Shown piece after piece: positions 2,363 to 15,975 of a DNA stretch of 23,189 bases. Source of the DNA: a virus. A program made the position numbers and the translations under genes. The stretch spans positions 1-23,189 of the IMG/VR virus record IMGVR_UViG_3300047557_000429; one strand, given 5' to 3'. The notes beneath the pieces were generated by a model. The model was not told where the DNA came from. It did no database searches and saw nothing but the letters and a program-made list of their open reading frames with translations. Each line of letters starts with the position of its first letter. Position 1 is the stretch's first letter.

Positions 2363-2927
2363 GAAGCGAGATCCACAAGTCGCTCGCGTGCGGTACGAAG
2401 ATGCGATGAAGCTGTATGATCGACTAATCGACGCAGGGATGTATGCGATCAAACCCATTCCACCAGAAGGCATGGAGACAGAGATGAATGAGCCTGAACA
2501 TGACCACCTCCGAGAAGCTATGGCAGCAGTGGATCAGCAAGAGACAGAGATTGCTGACACTGTGGCTGGTGCCGCCGTTGTGGATCGCACTGAGCATGTT
2601 GACGTGCGTTCTATGATCCTCGATCTGCAACAGTCGAAGTACCCTGACGATAACATCGCTGCTCTCCTACGCGAGAGAGGCAAGACCCATGGTGAGTTTA
2701 CCGATCACGCTATGGTGACGCAGCAGTTGAAGCAGATCGTTCGCACGCATTGCAACATGAATAGTGGCGTGCGTTCGTATGAGCTTCTGTCTCCGATCCA
2801 GCAGGAAGCTATCGACATGATCCTGCACAAGATCGGTCGCATCATCGCTGGTGATCCTAACTTCCCTGATCACTGGGATGATCTCTCTGGGTATCCGAAG
2901 CTCGTAGCACAGAGGCTCCGCAAATGA
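2352..2927 (+). CDS. DUF6378-like phage protein
   Basis: This 191-residue protein starts inside the end of the helicase gene (ATG 2352, with AGGAG about eight bases upstream), so it is probably translationally coupled. Residues about 105-190 contain the pattern RGKTHGEF, then a helical stretch, LSPIQQEAIDM, HKIGRIIAGDP, and HWDDLSGY. I recognise this as the phage domain DUF6378, whose biochemical role is unknown to me. The first 40 residues are basic and helical, followed by an acidic linker at about 41-80. An internal ATG at 2484, preceded by GGAG, could give a shorter 147-residue form. The neighbours are helicase and DNA polymerase, so a replication or nucleotide-related role is plausible but not shown. 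Confidence 0.85.
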   Translation: MRGKKRDPQVARVRYEDAMKLYDRLIDAGMYAIKPIPPEGMETEMNEPEHDHLREAMAAVDQQETEIADTVAGAAVVDRTEHVDVRSMILDLQQSKYPDDNIAALLRERGKTHGEFTDHAMVTQQLKQIVRTHCNMNSGVRSYELLSPIQQEAIDMILHKIGRIIAGDPNFPDHWDDLSGYPKLVAQRLRK

Positions 2928-5425
2928 TCACCACCACAGAGCAGATGAAGTCTGAGTTCACTATGCGTGCGAACGCTGCTGAACTCGACGTCCACTGCCT
3001 GATGGATGGTTCGCTCTACTCTACTATCGCTGTCGTTGCCGAAGCTCCTGGCGACACAGAGTGTAGAGTAGGGCGTCCGCTCGTTGGTGGTAGTGGCACG
3101 CATCTCTGGAACACACTCCGTCCACAGAAGATCACGAGGGCTGACTGCTATGTCACGAACGTCGTCAAGAAGAAGCTCATTGAACGCGATGATTCGAAGG
3201 CGGTGTTATCAAGACACGAGCTTGATCACTGGAGCAGTCTGCTTACGTGGGAACTCCTTCAGCTACCGAACCTTCGTTATGTGTTCGCTCTTGGCAACTA
3301 CGCGCTCCGGGCCCTTACAGGACATGAGGGGATTACCTCTTGGCGTGGCTCTGTCCTTGAAGTCACGCTTGAAGCAGAAGGCATCAGTCGAACTGTTAAG
3401 GTTATATGTGCAAACAATCCCGCACTAGTGCTGAGGGAGCCGAAGAATGAGATCATATTCGCCCTCGATTGCGCTAAACTCCGAAGAGTTATCGACGGCA
3501 GACATCAACCTCATCCAATGCTGGTCCACATTAACCCCACACCTCGACAGGCTATCGACTTTATACGTGGACTCAGAGCGGATCGTATTCCCATCGCAAC
3601 TGATATTGAGACTATCGGTGGAGAGACAGCATGTATTGGATTTGCGAACCGAACTGACGAAGCTATGTGCATCTCTTTCCGAGACCTTACCAGTAATCGG
3701 TTTGATACGAGTGACGAGGCCCGCATACGGCAGGAGATACAGTCTCTATCTGATGATCCGGCTACGCGGTATGTGATGCAGAACGGCATGTTCGACATGT
3801 CGTGGCTCTGGTACAAGGACAAGATCGCGCTACGCAAGGCGCACTTCGACACGATGCTCGCACATCACACGCTGTATCCTCAGCTGCCGCACAACCTCGG
3901 CTTCCTCACTACGCAGTACACTGATCACCCCTACTACAAGGATGAGAAGGATGACTGGAAAGAAGCCGGAGACATCGACTCGTTCTGGCGATACAACGGC
4001 CACGATTGCTGCATTACGTTGCAGGTGTTCATGCGGGAACTGGATGAACTCCGTGCGGCACGTCTGGATCGATTCTTCTTCGAGCACGTTATGCGTCTAC
4101 AAATGCACCTCGTGCGGCTTACGGTTGGCGGCATTCGTGTCGATACCACCCTTAAAGACCGTCTGTTCGTCGAGCTAGAACAGGAGGTGCAGCAGAAGCT
4201 ACGCGTGTTCCAAGAAGCTGCACGCGCTGCGACTGGCGAGGGGGAGGACTACGAGCCTAACCCGTCGTCGCCGAAGCAACTCAGTGACCTGCTGTTCAAC
4301 AAGCTGAAGCTGGTGGGGAGAGGTAGTAGCACTAACGCTGAGAACCGTACGACGATGTACAACCATCCGCGTACGAAGGAGGAAGCGCGTGCTGTGATCC
4401 GCGCGATCGATGAGTACGCCAAGGAGAAGAAGTTCTTCTCGACCTATGCGTCGATGGCTATCGATCCTGATCAGCGGTTCAGGTGTGAGTGGAAGCAGAC
4501 TGGTGTGCAATCTGCTCCCGGTCGTCTGTCGTCAGCAGCGACATGGTGGGGCTGCGGTATGAATGCGCAGAACCAACCATCACGGGCGCAGCAAATGTAC
4601 ATTGCTGACCCTGGCTACTGCTTTATCTACTTCGACCTTAGTCAAGCCGAGGCGCGAGTCGTCGGCTGGCTTGCTAATATCGAGTCGTGGATTCGTGACT
4701 TCGAGCGTGCGAGAGTCGATGGGAAGTACGACTGTCACAGGGCCCTTGCCAGCGAAATGTTCGGCGTACCTTACGACGAGGTTCCGACCAAGGACCGTGA
4801 CGCTAGTGACCAACCCACGATCAGGTACATTGCTAAGCGGTGCAGACATGGCCTCAACTACCGTATGGCCCCAGATAGGCTAAGCCTCACCACCGGGCTT
4901 TCACGCAGTGAGGCATACCGTTCTTACGAGATCTATCACAAGATCAATCCCGAGTTGCGCTTGTGGTGGGCCGCGTTAGAGCAGGAGATCCGCACTACCA
5001 AGGCCCTCTACAATGCGTTCGGCAGACGCTTGCCGTTGCTTGAACGTCCTAGCACAGAGGCACTGGAAAGTATAGTGGCGTTCAAGCCCCAATCGACAAT
5101 CGGCGATAAGGTTTGCCGTGTAATCTATAAGGCACACGATGACCCTCGATGGCCGAGAACGGCTAGGCTTGGCATCAACGTCCACGATGCGCTGATCGGG
5201 CTAGCGCCTATCGACAAGGCTAAGGACTGTCTACGCATCCTACGTAAGTACGCAGAGGAGCCTATATTGTTCCCGGCTAATCCCATCAATGTTGGAGGCA
5301 AGACTGTCCGCTCGTGTACTGAGCCACTCATCATACCGATGGACGCAGGCATCTCGGTCCCTGACGAACAGGGACTTCACAGATGGTCTACGATCAAGAA
5401 GATCAGTCGCGAAGACTACTGCTGA
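2924..5425 (+). CDS. Family A DNA polymerase with UDG-like and 3'-5' exonuclease domains
   Basis: This 833-residue replicative polymerase starts at ATG 2924 in an ATGA overlap with the previous stop. Residues about 30-190 resemble family 4 uracil-DNA glycosylases (EAPG at 40-43, GRPLVGGSG at 50-58, a VTNVVK stretch near 77-82). The usual His-Pro motif reads NNPA (164-167), and no N-terminal CxxC iron-sulfur ligands are seen. Such fusions are known from SPO1-type polymerases. Residues about 220-400 are a DEDDy exonuclease with D227/E229, N287/D291 and Y357/D361. The polymerase domain has motif A DLSQAEARV (D571, E576), motif B with R634, K638, H642 and Y646, and motif C H754-D755. In motif B, H642 replaces the usual Phe or Tyr. 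Motif C reads HDA rather than HDE. Polymerase and exonuclease activities are expected; glycosylase activity is doubtful. Confidence 0.95.
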   Translation: MITTTEQMKSEFTMRANAAELDVHCLMDGSLYSTIAVVAEAPGDTECRVGRPLVGGSGTHLWNTLRPQKITRADCYVTNVVKKKLIERDDSKAVLSRHELDHWSSLLTWELLQLPNLRYVFALGNYALRALTGHEGITSWRGSVLEVTLEAEGISRTVKVICANNPALVLREPKNEIIFALDCAKLRRVIDGRHQPHPMLVHINPTPRQAIDFIRGLRADRIPIATDIETIGGETACIGFANRTDEAMCISFRDLTSNRFDTSDEARIRQEIQSLSDDPATRYVMQNGMFDMSWLWYKDKIALRKAHFDTMLAHHTLYPQLPHNLGFLTTQYTDHPYYKDEKDDWKEAGDIDSFWRYNGHDCCITLQVFMRELDELRAARLDRFFFEHVMRLQMHLVRLTVGGIRVDTTLKDRLFVELEQEVQQKLRVFQEAARAATGEGEDYEPNPSSPKQLSDLLFNKLKLVGRGSSTNAENRTTMYNHPRTKEEARAVIRAIDEYAKEKKFFSTYASMAIDPDQRFRCEWKQTGVQSAPGRLSSAATWWGCGMNAQNQPSRAQQMYIADPGYCFIYFDLSQAEARVVGWLANIESWIRDFERARVDGKYDCHRALASEMFGVPYDEVPTKDRDASDQPTIRYIAKRCRHGLNYRMAPDRLSLTTGLSRSEAYRSYEIYHKINPELRLWWAALEQEIRTTKALYNAFGRRLPLLERPSTEALESIVAFKPQSTIGDKVCRVIYKAHDDPRWPRTARLGINVHDALIGLAPIDKAKDCLRILRKYAEEPILFPANPINVGGKTVRSCTEPLIIPMDAGISVPDEQGLHRWSTIKKISREDYC

Positions 5426-8400
5426 GGTGGCTTGCCTATCAGCAATCGTCTACTGACAGCAGCTAGGTTCTCTAGCGTCAGAGGTACACCGTACTGCTGT
5501 TTGAATGCCTCGCCATAAGCCTGCTGGATAGACTCTACGTTCTTGTCCAGCAGGTCTTTCTGTTGCATCTGTGCAATGAGCGTACGACGTGCGATGTTGT
5601 TGCTCATCTGCGCACGGTCGGTAGGACTAATGGACGCACGGCTCGTAGCACTACGTGTCAGGTCGATCTCCGCACGCAACATGTCTAGCTGTTTGCCAAG
5701 CTGTCCATATGGCGTCTTGTTCCCGAGCTTCTTCGTCAACTCACCAATGATCTGCTGCGTGAGTGGATCACGGATCGTCTCAGGATTGCGCACCTGCGGG
5801 TTGCCAGCTACCTGTGTGTAGTACTGGCTAGCCTCGCGTAGATGACCACCAGCCTCACGCAGTGCCTTGCTATAAGCATTGAACGTCTTCACGCGTTCAG
5901 TCAGTGACCAGACACCTGGACCGTCAGGCATCTTGTCCATCTGCTGTTGCCAGTACTCGTCAATGAATCCCTCAACACCCTGCTTGAGGGGAGACCATTT
6001 GTCCTTGCCTTCTCCTGCCTTCTTAGCAGCAGCATGCACAGACGCACCAGTCTCTAGTCCCTCTAGCATCTGCACACCGAACAGACCACCGAGAGCCATA
6101 GCTACGTCCTTGATGCGCGTGCCCATAGCCGCGGCGCTCGCACCAACATAAGGCAAGTCCTCTAGCGACGACACACCAGACGTCGCACCAGGATCGATGC
6201 GCGTGCTTTGCTGTCCACCACGGAACGGATTAGTTCCTTCAGCAATAGCATCCTGCATATTGATCTTAGCGCCGAACAGAGAGGCACCGGCAGTCACAGC
6301 CGTCGGCACAAAACCCCCCAACACGTCAGCTAGTGTATTGCGTACCACACTCCATGCAGTCGGATTGTCCTCGACAGTACCAGCAGGCACCATGCCCATA
6401 GCAGGCATCGACTGAATGATGGCACTCGTCAGTGGGCCGAAGTCAGGCGGGATTGGCATCTTCATGAACTTCTCTGGTTCGAAGTCCATGAGTTCACCAT
6501 TGTGCCACTTCGAGAATGTGTCGAAGAAGTCAGGATGCGCAGGATCAGGGAACAGCATGTTCCTCTCGCGTTCATAGCGAGGCATGACATTCCAATAGTA
6601 GTTGCTCGTACCAGGGCTACGGCTAGCCAGATACGCAGCAGCTACGGCAGGCGCAACGCCGAGCATCATGACTCGAGAGAACGCATCGAGATGATCGACA
6701 CTGAACGGCTTCACCGTAGGGTCCATGCCGAATGCAGCACGCAGGCGCTTAGACATGATAGCGTAGCCTGCCATCTGCACACGCGCGTATGGCACAGTGC
6801 GTTGCAGGAACCGCATCGTGCGACTACCACTCATGCGGATGAGGTCGCCTTCTGTCTCACGACCTAGCATCTCGATGCGTGCAAGTTCCTTCTTGGGGAT
6901 CAGGTCTACAGATCCGTATTGCTTCTTAGCCTTGGCCATCTCCTGTGCAATAGCACCGAGACGAGAGCCAGACTGCATAGTCTCGAAGAAGTTAATCCAT
7001 GCCTTGAGCGGATAGCTAAGAGGGAACGTAGCCAAGCGTCCAGCAGCGCCAAGCCTAGAACCAGTGATCTCTTCAACACGCGACCGTAGACCCGCAACCT
7101 TCTCGACAGTATGTCCCACCATCGACTCAGGATCTAGTCCAAGTGTCAACGCATCTTCGAGCATGAATCGCTTCATGTTCTGCGATGAGGTCCACATCCA
7201 GTCATCGAACTTCTTGACGTCGCCGAACGCAGAGACTAGGCGCTTACCGCTTTCTGTCTGCACCAGAACAGTGCGCAGGTCCCTCATGATGTCTGCGATC
7301 ATGTGATGCACAGGTTCGCCAGCAACAGCAGCACGTGCCATGCCTCGCGCCACGGTGACAGGCGAGATACCGCTACCCGCTCTAGCGAGAGAGACAGCAC
7401 TAGGCATAGCCCACAGCAACTGCTTCATCAGCGCCGCAGGACCGCCTAGCGCACCAGTGTAGCCGCGCTGCAACCAGACGCGCGGTACCTGCATCATCTT
7501 CTCTGCCATCGAGAGATTGTCAGCGACGACGTTCAAGCCTTTCGCCAATCCCTCTGGTACCTGCCATACCTGTTCCTTGCCTTTGTCGAACGTGACGACG
7601 TGCTTAGTAGGATCGATCTCCTTCACAGCATTGCGGTTCGTAGGAGTGAGACCGAGCCTTTTCATGATAGCAGTGTGACTAGCATTGCGCTCAAGCAACG
7701 ATGCACTGTGCTGTGCGTACTGCACCAAGGCTTCCATAGATGCTCCAGGCAAAGTCACCATGTGCGACACGTCATCGGTGTTTACACGACGAGCGTCACG
7801 GGTCAGTGCCTGAAACGCAGGACCACGCTGCTTCTCTCCGCGCATGGCTTTGTCCCACCACGAACGGCCAATGTCTTCATCCTGCCACTGACGGCCGTAG
7901 TAGAAGAAGCGCTGTAGGTTCTGTGCAGACTGAGGATCATCGATGCCACGGCCCACGCGTTCATTGAGGATGCGCTTCGTCGTGCGATCGACAAGGTTGA
8001 GATGTTGCTTCAACTCAGGCAGATCATTCGTCATCTTAGCGACGAGCTGCTCAGCCTCACGTGTCGTGTACTGCGGCATCACAAGACGCGTCTCAGGCTC
8101 ATCATCCTTGATCTTCCTCACTGCTTCCTGTGCAGCTTGGTAAGCATCGAGGTTAGCCTTCGTCGGCGCACGTCTGAACGCAGTGCCAGCATCGAGCATC
8201 GCGTCATCCGCAAGCTTCAATGCCTCCTTGCGTCTGTCGAGCAGCACATGCAAGTTCGCGTACTCGTCCCATGCCTTCTGTGCATCAGGACTCATGCGCT
8301 GGTAGTTGCGCACAGGTTCGATGACCCACTCATCAGCTTGCTGCTTGACGCGCTTGAAGAACGACGCACCATGCGCAGATGCAGCGATGTCGTCAACATC

Positions 8401-9462
8401 ACCCGGCGCCTCTGGATCTTTGCTCACCTCTCGCACGGCAGCACGCACCGGCGCCTCTTCGTCAAGGCCCGTCTTCACCTTGCCCATGGCACGGCTGTAT
8501 AGGCCCCCTGGCCCCTGCGGCCCGATGTCTCGGACGATGGTCTGTGCCCCTCCTACGGCCCCCGCAGGCACCTCTATGAACTCCTTCGTCCCTTCGCGCG
8601 TGATGCCCTTGGCGACCTGTGTAGCCTTGCCGACCTTGCCTAGAGCAGCGGCAATACCCACGCCAGCAGCACCAGCCCCAAGACCAGTAGCAGCATCTCC
8701 CGCGTCATCGAGGATAGTCTCCTGATCGGTAGCGTAGCGAATGCCTTGGTTGATAGCAGCACCAACGCCGATGTTCGCAGCTACGTTGCCAGCACTATAT
8801 GGCACAGTGAACGGTGTCGCGAGTTCCACACTCTTAGCTGCATACTTCGCAACCTTACCCACCAGTGACGCAGGCAGCTTTGCAGCAGCAGTGGGATTGC
8901 GCAGTGACAGGCCGATGGCACCCTGCGTAGCCAACTCTGTGAGTTCATCAGCACTCGTCATCTGATCAGGCTTACGCGTCTCACCGACGAGAGTGTTGAT
9001 GCCCTCCTCGATCTTGGCTGCCCAACGCAACGGCGCTGCTAGGCTCTCCTGTGTCTTGTGATAATAGTCATCACTCTGGATATAGCTGTTGAGGAAGTTC
9101 TGAACCTGCTCGTTGGTAGCTGTGGGGTTCTGACGCAGAAAGTTGTCACGCTCTGCAACGATGTCAGCCTGCATAGCTGCGCCCTCATCAGGGATAGCAG
9201 CAGCTTTTAGCGCTTCGCCCCAATTGTCCTTCTCAGCTACGCGATTGTAGACAGTCTTGCCTGCAAGATACGGCAGACCGACAGCGACATTGAGCATATC
9301 GCTCGTAGCGCCCTTAGCTACAGCACCAGCAGTACGCTTCGCTATCCACGAGGCCCAGCCGTCTTCACTCTCCTTCTCTTCGCGCTTCATCGAAGGCTCT
9401 GCTACAGGAAGCTTGAAGCCTTGCGCTAGGAGTTCTTTCTTCTCTTCTTCACTTAGGTCCAT
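5416..9462 (-). CDS. Large internal virion / ejection protein (LPD38-like region suspected)
   Basis: This 1348-residue protein is the last and largest gene of the virion block. Its start at 9462 is preceded by GGGAGAAG and overlaps the previous gene by 14 bases. The N-terminus is charged. A Gly/Ala-rich hydrophobic stretch lies near residues 220-285, and further hydrophobic segments lie near 675-700 and 925-945. A helical region around 880-910 (RTVPYARVQMAGYAIMSKRL) resembles the large polyvalent protein domain LPD38 found in long phage proteins; this is from memory of the pattern. No lytic transglycosylase, protease or polymerase motif was seen. By position it corresponds to the large ejection proteins of podoviruses (such as T7 gp16), which leave the capsid and help DNA cross the envelope. 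Its stop overlaps the polymerase stop tail to tail by ten bases. Confidence 0.8.
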   Translation of the reverse strand: MDLSEEEKKELLAQGFKLPVAEPSMKREEKESEDGWASWIAKRTAGAVAKGATSDMLNVAVGLPYLAGKTVYNRVAEKDNWGEALKAAAIPDEGAAMQADIVAERDNFLRQNPTATNEQVQNFLNSYIQSDDYYHKTQESLAAPLRWAAKIEEGINTLVGETRKPDQMTSADELTELATQGAIGLSLRNPTAAAKLPASLVGKVAKYAAKSVELATPFTVPYSAGNVAANIGVGAAINQGIRYATDQETILDDAGDAATGLGAGAAGVGIAAALGKVGKATQVAKGITREGTKEFIEVPAGAVGGAQTIVRDIGPQGPGGLYSRAMGKVKTGLDEEAPVRAAVREVSKDPEAPGDVDDIAASAHGASFFKRVKQQADEWVIEPVRNYQRMSPDAQKAWDEYANLHVLLDRRKEALKLADDAMLDAGTAFRRAPTKANLDAYQAAQEAVRKIKDDEPETRLVMPQYTTREAEQLVAKMTNDLPELKQHLNLVDRTTKRILNERVGRGIDDPQSAQNLQRFFYYGRQWQDEDIGRSWWDKAMRGEKQRGPAFQALTRDARRVNTDDVSHMVTLPGASMEALVQYAQHSASLLERNASHTAIMKRLGLTPTNRNAVKEIDPTKHVVTFDKGKEQVWQVPEGLAKGLNVVADNLSMAEKMMQVPRVWLQRGYTGALGGPAALMKQLLWAMPSAVSLARAGSGISPVTVARGMARAAVAGEPVHHMIADIMRDLRTVLVQTESGKRLVSAFGDVKKFDDWMWTSSQNMKRFMLEDALTLGLDPESMVGHTVEKVAGLRSRVEEITGSRLGAAGRLATFPLSYPLKAWINFFETMQSGSRLGAIAQEMAKAKKQYGSVDLIPKKELARIEMLGRETEGDLIRMSGSRTMRFLQRTVPYARVQMAGYAIMSKRLRAAFGMDPTVKPFSVDHLDAFSRVMMLGVAPAVAAAYLASRSPGTSNYYWNVMPRYERERNMLFPDPAHPDFFDTFSKWHNGELMDFEPEKFMKMPIPPDFGPLTSAIIQSMPAMGMVPAGTVEDNPTAWSVVRNTLADVLGGFVPTAVTAGASLFGAKINMQDAIAEGTNPFRGGQQSTRIDPGATSGVSSLEDLPYVGASAAAMGTRIKDVAMALGGLFGVQMLEGLETGASVHAAAKKAGEGKDKWSPLKQGVEGFIDEYWQQQMDKMPDGPGVWSLTERVKTFNAYSKALREAGGHLREASQYYTQVAGNPQVRNPETIRDPLTQQIIGELTKKLGNKTPYGQLGKQLDMLRAEIDLTRSATSRASISPTDRAQMSNNIARRTLIAQMQQKDLLDKNVESIQQAYGEAFKQQYGVPLTLENLAAVSRRLLIGKPPQQ

Positions 9463-11040: not shown

Positions 11041-11990
11041 TAGAACGCTCCTGCCTGGTTCTTGTTCCTGTTCAGCAGGTCATCTAGTGTACTCGTGCCA
11101 AGCTGCGTGTTGCCAGTAGTGGCTAGTGTACCAGCGTTCTGGTTAGCAGTGGTGATCAGCTTCGAGATGTCAAACAGCGAGGTGCCACCAACAGCGTTGC
11201 GAATATCACCTTCCAGCCGTGAGCGGAAGCTGTCAGCCAGCGTGTTGAGGCCCGTCTTCTCTTTCTCTAGATCGAAGCCCTGACCGAAGTCGAAGGTACT
11301 GATCTTGTTGCGGATGTTGTTGCCGTAGTCAGCCAGCTTCGACCTATAGCCCTGCAGCACACCGCCGCCGATGTCGTTCAGCTTGCCGAATGCACCGCTC
11401 TTAGCAGTGTCGAGGTCAGCCAGCGCACGTTCGAACGCAGAACCTGTAAGCTGCCCACGTGCAGACTGACGTTCGAAGTTAGCCTTCGCGTCGTTGTATT
11501 GACTGTCGAGAATAGACTGCAGGATTGCATCATCCGACGTGTCGCTGAACATGTCAGTCTCAAAGCCGCTACCAGCGAACTGGTTAGCCAAGCCCGTGAG
11601 CCTGTTGCGCTCGCCACTACGCACGCGATCATACGCCTGATCGTAGAGACTGTTGCCGAAGTACGCACTAGGTGCCGCCATCTCTGGCATCTGTGCGCGC
11701 TGCAGATCCAAGTCCGCGCGGAACGCTTTCATAATGCCGTAGGGATCACTAGGATCTAGCCCACTCTCTGCATATCGCTGCTGCGCGTACTGCTGTGCAG
11801 CGTTGTAAGCAGTGCCAACGTCGCCCTGCCAATCACGCAGGTCGCGTTTCTCCTGCTGCTCTGCTTGTAGCTCTGCTCGCTGCGCAGCCTGTCTGTCTAG
11901 ACGTGCCTGCTGCTGAGCAAGCATCATCTGTGCGCGTGCTTCTTGCTGAGGGCTGTACGTCTTCGGTGCCGCCGGTGCCGATCCACTCAC
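11040..11990 (-). CDS. Probable internal virion protein, Gln/Ala-rich helical
   Basis: This 316-residue protein probably begins at GTG 11990, in a GTGA overlap with the acetyltransferase-like gene and with GGGAG upstream. Residues about 13-50 form a very polar helix rich in Gln, Ala, Arg and Glu. Further helical segments lie around 155-200 and 215-270. There is no signal peptide, membrane segment or catalytic motif. Gene order (directly before two other helical proteins and the giant protein) suggests a member of the internal core or ejection complex. Function is inferred from context alone. Confidence 0.78.
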   Translation of the reverse strand: MSGSAPAAPKTYSPQQEARAQMMLAQQQARLDRQAAQRAELQAEQQEKRDLRDWQGDVGTAYNAAQQYAQQRYAESGLDPSDPYGIMKAFRADLDLQRAQMPEMAAPSAYFGNSLYDQAYDRVRSGERNRLTGLANQFAGSGFETDMFSDTSDDAILQSILDSQYNDAKANFERQSARGQLTGSAFERALADLDTAKSGAFGKLNDIGGGVLQGYRSKLADYGNNIRNKISTFDFGQGFDLEKEKTGLNTLADSFRSRLEGDIRNAVGGTSLFDISKLITTANQNAGTLATTGNTQLGTSTLDDLLNRNKNQAGAF

Positions 11991-12469
11991 TGTCTTATTC
12001 TCCCACAGGTCGATTTATAGAATACTGCACCGGCAGGAATATAGCCGATGCGTGGAAACTGTGCCAGCACAGCATCCATCTCGTCACCCGGTCGGAGGAC
12101 GGTGAGTAGTATCTCAACAGCACCACCAAGTCGTGCCCATTCCTCATACTCTCTGATCAGTCGGAATAGGACACGTGTCTTGCGGTACTCAGGTAGAACA
12201 AAGAACAGATGGTCTGACGCATAGACCTCATATGAGTACATGTACTCAGAGATCGCAGCACTCAGGCCACCTGCAGGCTTGCCGTCTACGTACGCTATCC
12301 ATGCGTTGTACTTCGAACGTTCGAGATCATGAATGATTGTGAGACACGAAGCAACGACTTTCGACACACTGTATGGGTGCATCGGAAGCCGTTCCTTAAC
12401 CAGTGGTTCACAGACCTCAGCTAGTTGCTGTGCCTGCTCCAGTGTACGTACCTCTTTGATCTCGATCAT
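11987..12469 (-). CDS. GNAT-type acetyltransferase-like protein
   Basis: This 160-residue protein has the length and secondary-structure order of GCN5-related N-acetyltransferases. A mixed N-terminal half leads to a beta strand (HLFFVLPEYR, residues 87-96), then a long helix (LFRLIREYEEWARLGG, 101-116), a beta strand (VEILLTV, 118-124) and a C-terminal GYIPAGAVFYK segment. The acetyl-CoA pyrophosphate loop is normally R/QxxGxG/A. Here it reads RKTRVL (96-101) and lacks the glycines, so activity is uncertain. It starts at ATG 12469 in an ATGA overlap with the holin stop and ends in a GTGA overlap with a virion gene. Proteins of this type occur in other podovirus virion clusters. The target is unknown. 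Confidence 0.75.
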   Translation of the reverse strand: MIEIKEVRTLEQAQQLAEVCEPLVKERLPMHPYSVSKVVASCLTIIHDLERSKYNAWIAYVDGKPAGGLSAAISEYMYSYEVYASDHLFFVLPEYRKTRVLFRLIREYEEWARLGGAVEILLTVLRPGDEMDAVLAQFPRIGYIPAGAVFYKSTCGRIRQ

Positions 12470-12810
12470 TTGCTGCGCGGGATGGCGATACCAGTTGACG
12501 AGAAGAGACGAAGGACAATCGTGATGGCACTCTGCACAGCAGCGACCACAACAGGACTGTCGATGTACTGGTTGAGATCAGTAATCTGCAGCTGTTCCAG
12601 AATCATGATCACGACAGGGAACAGCACATTGAACCATGCCGTCTTGCTCTTGATGAGCGGCTTGGGTGCAGGAGCCTCGACAGGAGGATCAGGCTGATTG
12701 GGAGGAGTGACGACACTCGGTGTCTGCTGCGGTGCCTGCACAACTGTGCCAGTCGCTGCACCAACGATAGTGCCGAGGATCTGTCCAAAGATGCCAATGG
12801 GAGAACCCAT
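12466..12810 (-). CDS. Putative holin
   Basis: This 114-residue membrane protein starts at ATG 12810, two bases after the endolysin stop, with AAGGAA upstream. A longer start at 12852 would lie inside the endolysin gene. It has an N-terminal hydrophobic glycine-rich segment (about 5-24), a Pro-rich linker (26-52), a basic turn (KSK, 54-56), and two strong membrane segments (about 58-74 and 86-103) ending in LRLFSSTGI. The pattern of a KSKTAWFN entry, two membrane helices and an LR-x-hydrophobic exit is typical of small phage holins. Directly following the endolysin, it would form the inner-membrane lesion that releases that enzyme and times lysis. Confidence 0.7.
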   Translation of the reverse strand: MGSPIGIFGQILGTIVGAATGTVVQAPQQTPSVVTPPNQPDPPVEAPAPKPLIKSKTAWFNVLFPVVIMILEQLQITDLNQYIDSPVVVAAVQSAITIVLRLFSSTGIAIPRSK

Positions 12811-12811
12811 G

Positions 12812-13345
12812 TTATGATTCCTTCGCTGCGGTTGTCGGGAGTCCCTTGCCATCGAGCGTCACTACCCTCACATTCTCTGGTTGCACATTGTACTTAGGAC
12901 GACGGAAGTAAATCTCTCGCGTCTTCGGGAACGCCGTGATGTTCACTGCATCATTCTGGTTTCCACCGAGACCGTAGTAGTGAGTAGCTGTCTCGAAGAC
13001 ATACAGCGTGACATGACCACCACCATTGCGGCTCATAGCCATCACGTCGCCGAGCATCGGGCGGCTGACAGGAGTGCCAAAGTTGCGCCAGTTCAGGGCC
13101 CACAGCGGATCTTTCGGTACATCCTTGCCTGCGCGCTTAGCAACAACAGCCATGAACAGACCGCACCATGGCACGCTGTCAGCACTGTAGGCGTTGCGCA
13201 GTCCTACCTCTTTGGCCCATGCCATGATCTCTGGATTGTCACCAGTACCAGATTGTTCCTTCGTGCCATACAGCTTCAGCGCTTCCACGAGCATCCGTGG
13301 AGCACCCTCTTTGTCGAGCCATGCGTACTTGCTAGGCAGTGACAT
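12812..13345 (-). CDS. Endolysin, TIGR02594-type peptidoglycan hydrolase
   Basis: This 177-residue protein matches the NlpC/P60- or CHAP-like family TIGR02594 by pattern: EALKLYGTKE near residues 21-30, NPEIMAWAKEVGL (37-49), catalytic Cys in VPWCGLFM (C61), LGDVMAM then GGGHV with H111, and GGNQNDAV (128-134). The Cys and His are the expected catalytic pair. The predicted role is cleavage of cell-wall peptide bonds at lysis. No signal peptide is visible, so export would depend on the holin encoded next. The start at ATG 13345 is preceded by AGGAGAG. A hairpin lies just upstream at 13365-13387. The stop is two bases from the holin start, consistent with one lysis unit. Confidence 0.85.
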   Translation of the reverse strand: MSLPSKYAWLDKEGAPRMLVEALKLYGTKEQSGTGDNPEIMAWAKEVGLRNAYSADSVPWCGLFMAVVAKRAGKDVPKDPLWALNWRNFGTPVSRPMLGDVMAMSRNGGGHVTLYVFETATHYYGLGGNQNDAVNITAFPKTREIYFRRPKYNVQPENVRVVTLDGKGLPTTAAKES

Positions 13346-13396: not shown

Positions 13397-13804
13397 TCAG
13401 GTCGGCTGACCAGACTCATCAACAGGAGCTTCGCCACCAGTCGGCGTCTCTTCAGTCGGAGTCGGGGCTTCTTCGCTCTCGGTGTTGCTCACAACAGCGG
13501 TAGCGAGACGATCAGCCTGAGCCGCAAGACGGTCAGCGAATGCATTGACCTCCTCGGGATCATCCTTGATGTCCTTGAGTTCGTTCGCCAGCTTCTCCAG
13601 AAGCGCGACGACAGACGGAACAACCGACTCGATCTTCTCGACAGACTGCTGCAGTTTATCAAAGTTCATTTTCAGTACTCCAACGTTGGTTTGCAGAGCA
13701 TCAAGTTTAACGGCCATGCTCTTATCGAGCCGATCGAGACCTTTCACGACATCGCGCAGAAGGTCGGCGATTATATCCAGACGATCACTATTTCGCAGGC
13801 TCAT
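13397..13804 (-). CDS. Coiled-coil protein with acidic tail, unknown function
   Basis: This 135-residue protein starts at ATG 13804, preceded by GGAG about eight bases upstream. A GTG nine bases earlier is less likely. Residues about 1-85 carry continuous heptad-like spacing of Leu, Val and Ile (LLRDVVKGLDRLDKSMAVKL, then LQQSVEKIESVVPSVVALLE). That predicts a long coiled coil. Residues about 102-135 are acidic, with repeated Thr, Pro, Glu and Gly (TPTEETPTGGE), and are probably disordered. No membrane segment or catalytic motif is present. It overlaps the upstream gene by 17 bases and precedes the endolysin. It could be a fibre accessory or lysis-associated protein; the family is not recognised. 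Confidence 0.75.
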   Translation of the reverse strand: MSLRNSDRLDIIADLLRDVVKGLDRLDKSMAVKLDALQTNVGVLKMNFDKLQQSVEKIESVVPSVVALLEKLANELKDIKDDPEEVNAFADRLAAQADRLATAVVSNTESEEAPTPTEETPTGGEAPVDESGQPT

Positions 13805-14273
13805 CAGCAGCACTCCGTGGCGGTACTATGACAGGCGGTACGTCTTGCCACACAAGCCACATCCTGTGTGCTGGCGTGTACGCTATTGACCTTTCGATGC
13901 GAAGACCGGAGACGTTGGCGAGCGTTCGTGGAATGTCGGCGCAGAAGTCGGAGGAGCCTGGGCCTGGATTTCTGTTCCGGGGCTGAGATACAATACCACC
14001 ATCCTGTCGTCGCTGTACGATAGCAGGATAATCAACACTAGTGCCCAGCAGTACAAAACTCCAAGCACTACCAGTGGGTATGGCGTCATGGGTCTTCCTC
14101 CATGTCCAGCGCCAGCACACTGTGTCGTCTATCCGTTCAACTGCTTCGATCTGCTGATCCCTTAGTACAGGAGCAAGCCATTGCTCTAGGTCTGGCGCAG
14201 TTTTCAACCAGATCAGACCGAAGATGAACAGCGCGTTGGGCCACACTATTGCAGCCGCTATGACGCGCTTCAT
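13788..14273 (-). CDS. Membrane-anchored protein of unknown function near the lysis genes
   Basis: This 161-residue reading starts at ATG 14273 in an ATGA overlap with the preceding gene. A longer frame back to 14402 would overlap that gene by about 130 bases and was rejected. Residues 4-23 (VIAAAIVWPNALFIFGLIWL) form an N-terminal membrane or signal segment after the MKR start. The rest is soluble and Trp-rich, with VCWRWTWRK near 53-61, a lone Cys near 111, and a C-terminal MWLVWQDVPPVIVPP. It probably faces the periplasm. The family is not recognised. A shorter ORF in another frame lies wholly within it. Whether both are translated, or only one, cannot be settled by reading. Confidence 0.65.
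   Translation of the reverse strand: MKRVIAAAIVWPNALFIFGLIWLKTAPDLEQWLAPVLRDQQIEAVERIDDTVCWRWTWRKTHDAIPTGSAWSFVLLGTSVDYPAIVQRRQDGGIVSQPRNRNPGPGSSDFCADIPRTLANVSGLRIERSIAYTPAHRMWLVWQDVPPVIVPPRSAADEPAK
13883..14089 (-). CDS. Candidate nested small membrane protein
   Basis: This 68-residue ORF lies entirely inside the 161-residue gene in another frame of the same strand. Its ATG at 14089 has the best Shine-Dalgarno of this area: GGAGGA at 14096-14101, six bases upstream. Residues 5-25 (PLVVLGVLYCWALVLIILLSY) are a strong membrane segment. The remainder is hydrophilic and Pro-rich (APPTSAPTFHERSPTSP). Nested, Pro-rich membrane proteins next to endolysin and holin recall the Rz/Rz1 spanin arrangement. 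However, the Cys at residue 14 is not in a good lipobox (VLYC), so a lipoprotein is not supported. Real translation is plausible but unproven. Confidence 0.42.
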   Translation of the reverse strand: MTPYPLVVLGVLYCWALVLIILLSYSDDRMVVLYLSPGTEIQAQAPPTSAPTFHERSPTSPVFASKGQ

Positions 14274-14653: not shown

Positions 14654-15975
14654 CAGGCATAGCGGATGAAGTACGAGAGTGCGATGTTACGCGGCCGACC
14701 CTCGGAGCCGCTAGAGGCTGTGGTGAAGGTGTGGTTATGGTTGCCCACAGTCGTGGTGGTCTTGGTAGAGCCCCCACCGGCATTGTTCATATCCTGCACA
14801 CGATTCGCTGCACCACCCACAGACGTATTAGCCTGTAGGTCATAGCCCATGTCGTGGTTGTGGCTACCATCGTTAGAAGTAGTACCAGTGTGTGTATGTG
14901 GTTCGTTAGCTGCTGCCTGCGAACTGAGAAATACACGACCAGAGTCAGTGCCCTTAGCATCATCCCAGCCACGCACGAACTCGCCACGCAGATCAGGCAG
15001 AGCTAGTCGCCTGTTAGCAGCAAAGTCAGCAGCAGCACTTGCACCGCGAGCAACAGTAGCGCCAGCACTAGTGTAGAGCTGGAGTTCGCTGTTCGTTGTG
15101 TCGTTCCACAACGCAGTGAACAGATCCACTGTATCAGCGTTAGCACGTGCTGAGGCTCCTGACGCTGCGTTGCCGATAGTGCCACCATTGCACTTCAGCC
15201 AGCCACTAGTGGGCGTCTTGAATGCGAACAGCGCGATCATACCGACGTAGATGATGGAGTCCGCTGCTGCTTGTGCGCTCACAGCGCTAGCTGCTGCAGA
15301 AGACGCGCTCGTAGATGCCGCAGATGCAGACGCTGCTGCGTTGGTTGCTTGTGTCGTAGCTGTGTTGGCCTGCGTCGTAGCCGTGTTGGCACGAGTCAGA
15401 GCAGTCGATGCGCTAGTAGCTGCACTAGAGGCAGAACCAGCCGCCGCTGCTGCACTAGCTGCTGCCTGATCAGCAGACACCTGCGCATCGAGACCAGCAG
15501 CGTCAGTGAGATCGATCAGTACCTCAACCTTGTTAGCCGCAACATCGTCATCAAACGACGTACTCGACGTATGATCAGTATTGACGACGCAGTACTTATA
15601 GTTATAGACCACGAAGTCGTTGGCCGTGTACGCCGTGAGCGGGAGCCATTCTCCTCGGTTCTCGGGATCGTAGCTGAGAGCACGCCAATAGGTTGGGTTG
15701 GCTGTCTGATCATCAGCGAACGTCCCAGTCCCCGATGTGTGGCTCACCTGACAGATGTAGATGTTGCCGCCGAGCAGATCCAACACGCGGTCATCTGCCG
15801 CGTAGATAGTGCTAGGTGTCCACACGCCAGTAATCCCTTGCGCCGTCACGTATGTGCGGAACAGGGAGTCAATAATCGTGAAGTTGGCGTTGATGTACGT
15901 GCCCCAATCCGCCCAGTCGAACGCTGGTAGATTGAGCTTAAAGCCAGCAGTTTGGCCTTCGAGTGCGCCGCTCAT
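14653..15975 (-). CDS. Tail fibre with collar domain and His-rich tip
   Basis: This 440-residue receptor-binding fibre starts at ATG 15975 in an ATGA overlap with the tail gene upstream. Residues about 1-45 probably attach to the tail. Two similar beta modules follow (about 50-100 and 109-150, each opening with W-x-P-x-T/S-x-Y-x-A). Residues 160-240 are a long Ala/Ser/Thr repeat, probably a trimeric stalk, including a tandem ANTATTQ heptad. Residues about 244-335 match the phage tail collar domain (GMIALFAFKTPTSGWLKCNG, then LPDLRGEFVRGWD). The tip has three HxH motifs (H360/H362, H372/H374, H413/H415) and ends with EGRPRNIALSYFIRY, a usual fibre ending. It probably recognises the host surface. 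Confidence 0.9.
   Translation of the reverse strand: MSGALEGQTAGFKLNLPAFDWADWGTYINANFTIIDSLFRTYVTAQGITGVWTPSTIYAADDRVLDLLGGNIYICQVSHTSGTGTFADDQTANPTYWRALSYDPENRGEWLPLTAYTANDFVVYNYKYCVVNTDHTSSTSFDDDVAANKVEVLIDLTDAAGLDAQVSADQAAASAAAAAGSASSAATSASTALTRANTATTQANTATTQATNAAASASAASTSASSAAASAVSAQAAADSIIYVGMIALFAFKTPTSGWLKCNGGTIGNAASGASARANADTVDLFTALWNDTTNSELQLYTSAGATVARGASAAADFAANRRLALPDLRGEFVRGWDDAKGTDSGRVFLSSQAAANEPHTHTGTTSNDGSHNHDMGYDLQANTSVGGAANRVQDMNNAGGGSTKTTTTVGNHNHTFTTASSGSEGRPRNIALSYFIRYA
15349..15390 (-). repeat. Tandem 21-bp repeat in the fibre stalk
   Basis: Bases 15349-15369 and 15370-15390 are two tandem copies of a 21-base unit that differ at three positions, all compatible with silent change. 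Each encodes one ANTATTQ heptad in the Ala/Thr-rich stalk of the tail fibre. Flanking sequence decays into looser repeats of the same kind. Confidence 0.8.

Follow-up and report, generated by a model that had tools for sequence, protein, structure and literature searches.

The analysed window, a 23,189-base IMG/VR fragment, comes from a tailed phage whose late genes lie on the minus strand. PHROGs identified genes for the portal, the major capsid protein and the tail-collar fibre, and Pfam an SU10-type adaptor. After the tail fibre gene, the late operon runs through u127, P161, d138, an endolysin, a holin candidate and a GNAT acetyltransferase, and the genes beyond the acetyltransferase have no Pfam match (Table 1). 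Further along the same strand, a 1348-aa late protein (5416–9462) has neither a Pfam match nor a tblastn match in the loci compared, where two nearby virion genes do match.

Table 1. Coordinates of the nested ORF, its host gene and their neighbours in the window.
Feature	Position	Strand	Remark
u127, 127 aa, C-terminal hydrophobic segment	14270–14653	-	stop overlaps P161 start (ATGA)
P161 (host gene), 161 aa, N-terminal membrane anchor at residues 4–23, remainder predicted outside	13788–14273	-	
Nested ORF in the +1 frame of P161, 68 aa, one hydrophobic helix followed by a Pro-rich tail	13883–14089	-	
Shine-Dalgarno (SD) motif GGAGGA of the nested ORF, 6-nt spacing to its ATG	14096–14101	-	duplex energy -9.3 kcal/mol
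Codons of the hydrophobic stretch, nested residues 5–25	14015–14077	-	Kyte-Doolittle 2.8; AlphaFold2 helix 4–34
Codons for nested residues 37–68, the Pro-rich tail predicted to be unstructured	13886–13981	-	translation; pLDDT under 60
d138, 135 aa from ATG, soluble coiled-coil type	13397–13804	-	downstream ORF
Endolysin, TIGR02594 family	12812–13345	-	95.3 bits versus cut-off 70.55
Small membrane protein, holin candidate	12466–12810	-	Pfam Phage_holin_1 sub-threshold, 14.3 versus 22 bits

Entirely within P161 (14273 to 13788) and in its +1 frame, a second ORF of 68 codons plus stop runs from an ATG at 14089 to 13883, spanning, by arithmetic from the coordinates, approximately 0.38–0.80 of the length of its host. 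Its position, strand and length, the ATG with GGAGGA at a spacing of 6 nt, and its full inclusion in another gene in a different frame are as the original prediction, made from the letters and their translations, had described them. The same is true of the claim that the nested ribosome binding site (RBS) is stronger than that of the host: the energies of the duplex with the anti-SD RNA are -9.3 and -5.1 kcal/mol for the nested ORF and P161, respectively, and the nested site is tied for third among the 21 starts tested, equal to that of the major capsid gene. The predicted membrane helix and Pro-rich tail were recovered as well, with a best 19-residue Kyte-Doolittle mean of 2.8, a single AlphaFold2 helix at residues 4–34 (single-sequence mode, pLDDT ~97 over residues 11–20) followed by an unstructured tail, and eight prolines, six of which fall within the last 32 residues. 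The only cysteine, Cys14, is preceded by V-L-Y, so the protein has no lipobox, in keeping with the initial remark that a good one is missing; the hydrophobic residues continue past Cys14, and there is no positive n-region. The ORF had also been placed next to endolysin and holin; both genes are indeed close (within 1.6 kb), but d138 intervenes before the endolysin and the holin candidate lies beyond it.

The host gene starts with an ATG that overlaps the stop codon of u127 and is preceded by an SD sequence of its own. Its N-terminal transmembrane (TM) segment arises in 0.05% of shuffles. The P161 frame would be open by chance in 3–26% of cases in the overlap (given the nested protein), in 5.7% in the N flank and in 32% in the C flank. 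P161 has no match in PADLOC, Pfam, NCBIfam, PHROGs or PDB sequences, and its single-sequence AlphaFold2 model, with a pLDDT of 38, is unusable.

The length of the nested ORF alone is ordinary: when P161 was resampled synonymously with phage codon usage, 7,792 of 20,000 versions (39%) contained a +1 ORF that reached 68 aa or more. The conjunction of its features, unlike its length, looks more than accidental. An ATG, an SD of at least 5, a TM segment and at least 60 aa came together in 5 of 20,000 resamplings with phage codon usage. When the synonymous codons of P161 itself were permuted (20,000 permutations), the 68-codon span was open in 1.6%, open with a TM value of at least 2.0 in 0.08%, and open with TM, ATG and SD in 0.02%; all p values in this analysis are optimistic, since the ORF was chosen for looking unusual, from ~79 open stretches of 40 aa or more lying out of frame, and its features were known when the cut-offs were chosen. 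The full set (open, TM, ATG and SD) was obtained in 0.01% of cases with uniform synonyms and in 0.085% with phage usage, and an open frame with TM in 2.4% when P161 was resampled with average phage codon usage.

For a window-wide estimate, the codons of all 22 genes were permuted in 4,000 windows and same-strand out-of-frame ORFs of at least 60 aa were scored. An ORF with TM, SD and ATG was found in 0.15% of these windows, one with any start in 0.375%, and one with TM and no demand for an SD in 5.75%; with both strands counted, an ATG ORF of the full kind appeared in 5.3% of 300 permuted windows. As an empirical rate, the same kind of ORF was counted in 916,056 nt from the fetched loci (L002–L161), deduplicated and restricted to genes of 150 aa or more. 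These genes contained 1,349 open stretches out of frame that reached 60 aa, one of which had TM and SD; none had both together with an ATG. Within the window, a further out-of-frame ORF on the minus strand (15003–15188, 61 aa from an ATG, with a very hydrophobic end) lies in the tail fibre gene, in a part rich in Ala; counted from its SD-preceded GTG at 15146, it is a TM ORF of 47 aa. It is probably a composition artefact of GCN-rich repeats.

Codon fit was scored as a log-likelihood, in bits per codon, from the codon frequencies of the other 21 genes. In the overlap, the nested frame scored 0.018, the P161 frame -0.185 and the third frame -0.529. Across 545 windows taken from the other genes, the +1 frame never beat the true frame, and P161 scored below all of them; with a second coding score, the nested frame ranked above all 5,899 +1-frame windows from those genes. 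The codon usage of P161 is atypical beyond the overlap as well (0.09 and -0.06), and some of the contrast is therefore a property of this gene and not of dual coding. Permutation within P161, which removes this codon bias, shrinks the codon-fit excess to P = 0.03, and the results for openness and TM hold. The atypicality suggests either recent acquisition or constraint. None of the 14 Arg codons of P161 is CGT, which the window as a whole uses 162 times, more than any other Arg codon.

Overlapping spanin-type pairs from relatives served as positive controls, the difference between host and nested scores being ranked against windows, and their codon signals were mixed. This difference was small in L124, where 3 of 146 windows had a value as low, in L084 (6/179) and in L096 (13/207), middling in L174 (32/200) and ordinary in L085 (49/179), L082 (102/126) and L013 (189/397); L117 was left out, its host frame being spurious (99/173). 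Within this one genome, the nested frame is open and coding-like beyond the level imposed by its host, and the proposal of a second gene there is supported statistically by the permutations, the codon fit and the comparison with 916 kb of phage genes.

Searches for homologues used tblastn, phmmer and degenerate-pattern scans, on material from which the closest records to the window may be missing. No homologue of P161 or of the nested protein was returned from phages, plasmids, viral contigs, genome contigs, the fetched loci or 30 whole relative records, and none came up for u127 and d138. A weak plasmid match of P161 (E 0.07, 39% coverage), which lies inside a VOC family gene, was dismissed. 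The only match of the nested protein in PADLOC, Pfam, NCBIfam and PHROGs was one in PADLOC at chance level (E 0.055). The relatives taken were the best 80 of 264 by capsid and the best 80 of 146 by endolysin. Among those returned, the capsid protein is at most 76% identical and other genes are ~25–43% identical over the matched segments; their loci, where read, hold other lysis cassettes. Two contigs only, L117 (5394–5906) and L124 (5328–5837), have an anchored protein of P161-like architecture after a u127-like gene and behind an Rz/Rz1-type pair. Homology between this protein and P161 is not claimed (hhalign probability 1.7%). The listings returned by literature searches on nested or hidden lysis genes contain no entry on this locus.

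The arrangement had been said to recall nested spanins. This stands for the embedded +1 register, the N-anchored host and the Pro-rich tail, but not for the lipidation signal, as neither a lipobox nor a positive n-region is present. Embedded two-component spanins such as lambda Rz/Rz1 and T7 18.5/18.7 likewise consist of a small +1 ORF inside the gene for an N-anchored protein, near the endolysin, with a Pro-rich tail and an RBS of its own; a Pro-rich periplasmic part is of lambda type and not universal. The differences are that the hydrophobic helix of the nested protein continues past its only cysteine, that P161 belongs to no recognised i-spanin family, and that the pair lies between tail fibre and endolysin and not after a holin. 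A survey of spanins (PMC6139136) gives the o-spanin lipobox as [LVI][ASTVI][GAS]C, with AWAC, LNGC and FVGC as deviants, and reports that ~70% of embedded o-spanins start at 0.4–0.5 and end at 0.9–1 of the i-spanin, so that the nested ORF is slightly early at both ends. An o-spanin identity is rejected, since the lipobox is lacking and the helix runs past Cys14, features with which the protein would be expected to remain in the inner membrane. Of the i-spanin traits, an anchor and a periplasmic coiled coil, P161 has the N-terminal TM segment, and for the remainder there is no family match and only the low-confidence model mentioned above.

No lipobox ORF was found on the late strand of the window, which is a fragment. 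Overlapping Rz/Rz1-type pairs were found in relatives retrieved by capsid and virion genes (L013, L037 and L174) and by endolysin (L082, L084, L085, L096 and L124), the o-spanin of L124 being the only one checked against a spanin family. Of the loci retrieved by endolysin, 23 of 80 held a lipobox ORF, as did 17 of 93 of those retrieved by capsid or virion genes; some of these ORFs lie in spurious frames. As they are present in few loci, as the window is a fragment, and as 91 of the 677 surveyed phages had no identified spanin (PMC6139136), their absence here is weak evidence.

Taken together, we consider it probable that both frames of the overlap are coding and that the nested ORF is a real overprinted gene; given either frame, the other is improbable, and dual coding is accordingly preferred to a single coding frame. 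The contrary view, that P161 happens to contain this open frame by chance, that the ORF is not usefully translated and that its SD-like string simply comes from Trp-Arg-Lys codons (TGG AGG AAG), is a possible reading to which we give appreciably less credence. It draws on the frequency of +1 ORFs of this length among the resamplings, on the odd codon usage of P161 over the whole gene, on the lack of homologues and hence of conservation support, and on the size of the pool from which the ORF was picked. Against it stand the rarity of the open frame with TM, ATG and SD both in P161 and window-wide, the absence of an equivalent ATG ORF from the 916 kb of phage genes, and the better fit of the nested frame to phage codon usage in the overlap. 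The reverse case, with the nested ORF as the only gene and P161 as an accidental open frame, would account for the poor codon fit of P161 in the overlap and for its lack of homologues, but we regard it as highly improbable: P161 begins exactly at the upstream stop, has an SD and a signal-anchor N-terminus, and stays open over 161 codons, and its removal would leave gaps of 181 and 79 nt in a compact operon. A frameshift or assembly error joining two frames is not favoured either, each frame having its own start, RBS and membrane anchor.

It is unlikely, in our estimate, that P161 and the nested protein form a spanin-like pair without lipidation, in which the anchored P161 would reach out and the Pro-rich tail of the nested protein would fuse or bridge. 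The embedded +1 register near the o-spanin range, the small size, the Pro-rich tail, the N-anchored host product and a late strand free of lipobox ORFs, as compared with the Rz/Rz1-type pairs of the capsid and virion-gene relatives, are in line with such a pair, and the survey did not consider anchors other than the lipoprotein type (PMC6139136). The missing lipobox and positive n-region, the absence of a family match for P161, the scarcity of lipobox ORFs among relatives in general and the chance that a spanin lies outside the fragment speak against it. Slightly more doubtful still is the extended form of this proposal, namely a non-lipidated envelope-disruption pair confined to the inner membrane and replacing Rz/Rz1 in a spanin-less phage. 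If true, it would constitute an independent solution to outer-membrane disruption, with the same embedded +1 architecture and a different anchor.

For the overprinted gene itself, the most economical explanation is that internal initiation yields an inner-membrane protein with a single span, which may serve as a lysis accessory of the holin/antiholin type. Ribosomes would initiate at the strong RBS of the nested ORF on the late transcript shared with P161, both frames of 14089–13883 would be used, and the product would be a 68-aa single-span protein with a flexible Pro-rich tail; from the features of the ORF we infer its translation and insertion into the inner membrane. Judged from its position alone, it would be a lysis accessory, most likely of holin or antiholin type, and may help to set or trigger permeabilisation of the membrane for the endolysin close by, perhaps in concert with the anchored P161. 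We place this full reading, an overprinted gene with an inner-membrane product and an accessory role in lysis, at about even probability.

Single-span holins and antiholins are small proteins with one hydrophobic helix that are encoded near the endolysin, and the nested protein resembles them in size, in its single helix and in its proximity to the endolysin. It differs from them in having no match to a curated holin family (PHROG, Pfam or NCBIfam) and in the presence of the separate holin candidate (12810 to 12466). An overprinted lysis gene is known from phiX174, where gene E lies in a shifted frame of another gene, has an RBS of its own and encodes a small protein with a membrane helix at its N-terminus. 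The nested ORF shares this design, the likeness being one of architecture only, and the phage described here differs in having an endolysin and a holin candidate.

If translated, the nested ORF would add to a phage lysis region a membrane gene that lacks both annotation and known relatives. Small overlapping genes routinely escape gene callers, and 196 of the o-spanins in the survey had previously been unannotated (PMC6139136). Its product would also be a candidate for envelope handling by phages that do without lipoprotein spanins, a question that the survey leaves standing (PMC6139136).

Two other genes of the window deserve mention. An 833-aa ORF on the plus strand (2924–5425) encodes a family A DNA polymerase with a 3'-5' exonuclease domain and an N-terminal domain of the uracil-DNA-glycosylase superfamily. 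The GNAT acetyltransferase gene (11987–12469, minus strand) lies between the lysis region and the virion genes and occupies the same relative place in several of the capsid relatives.
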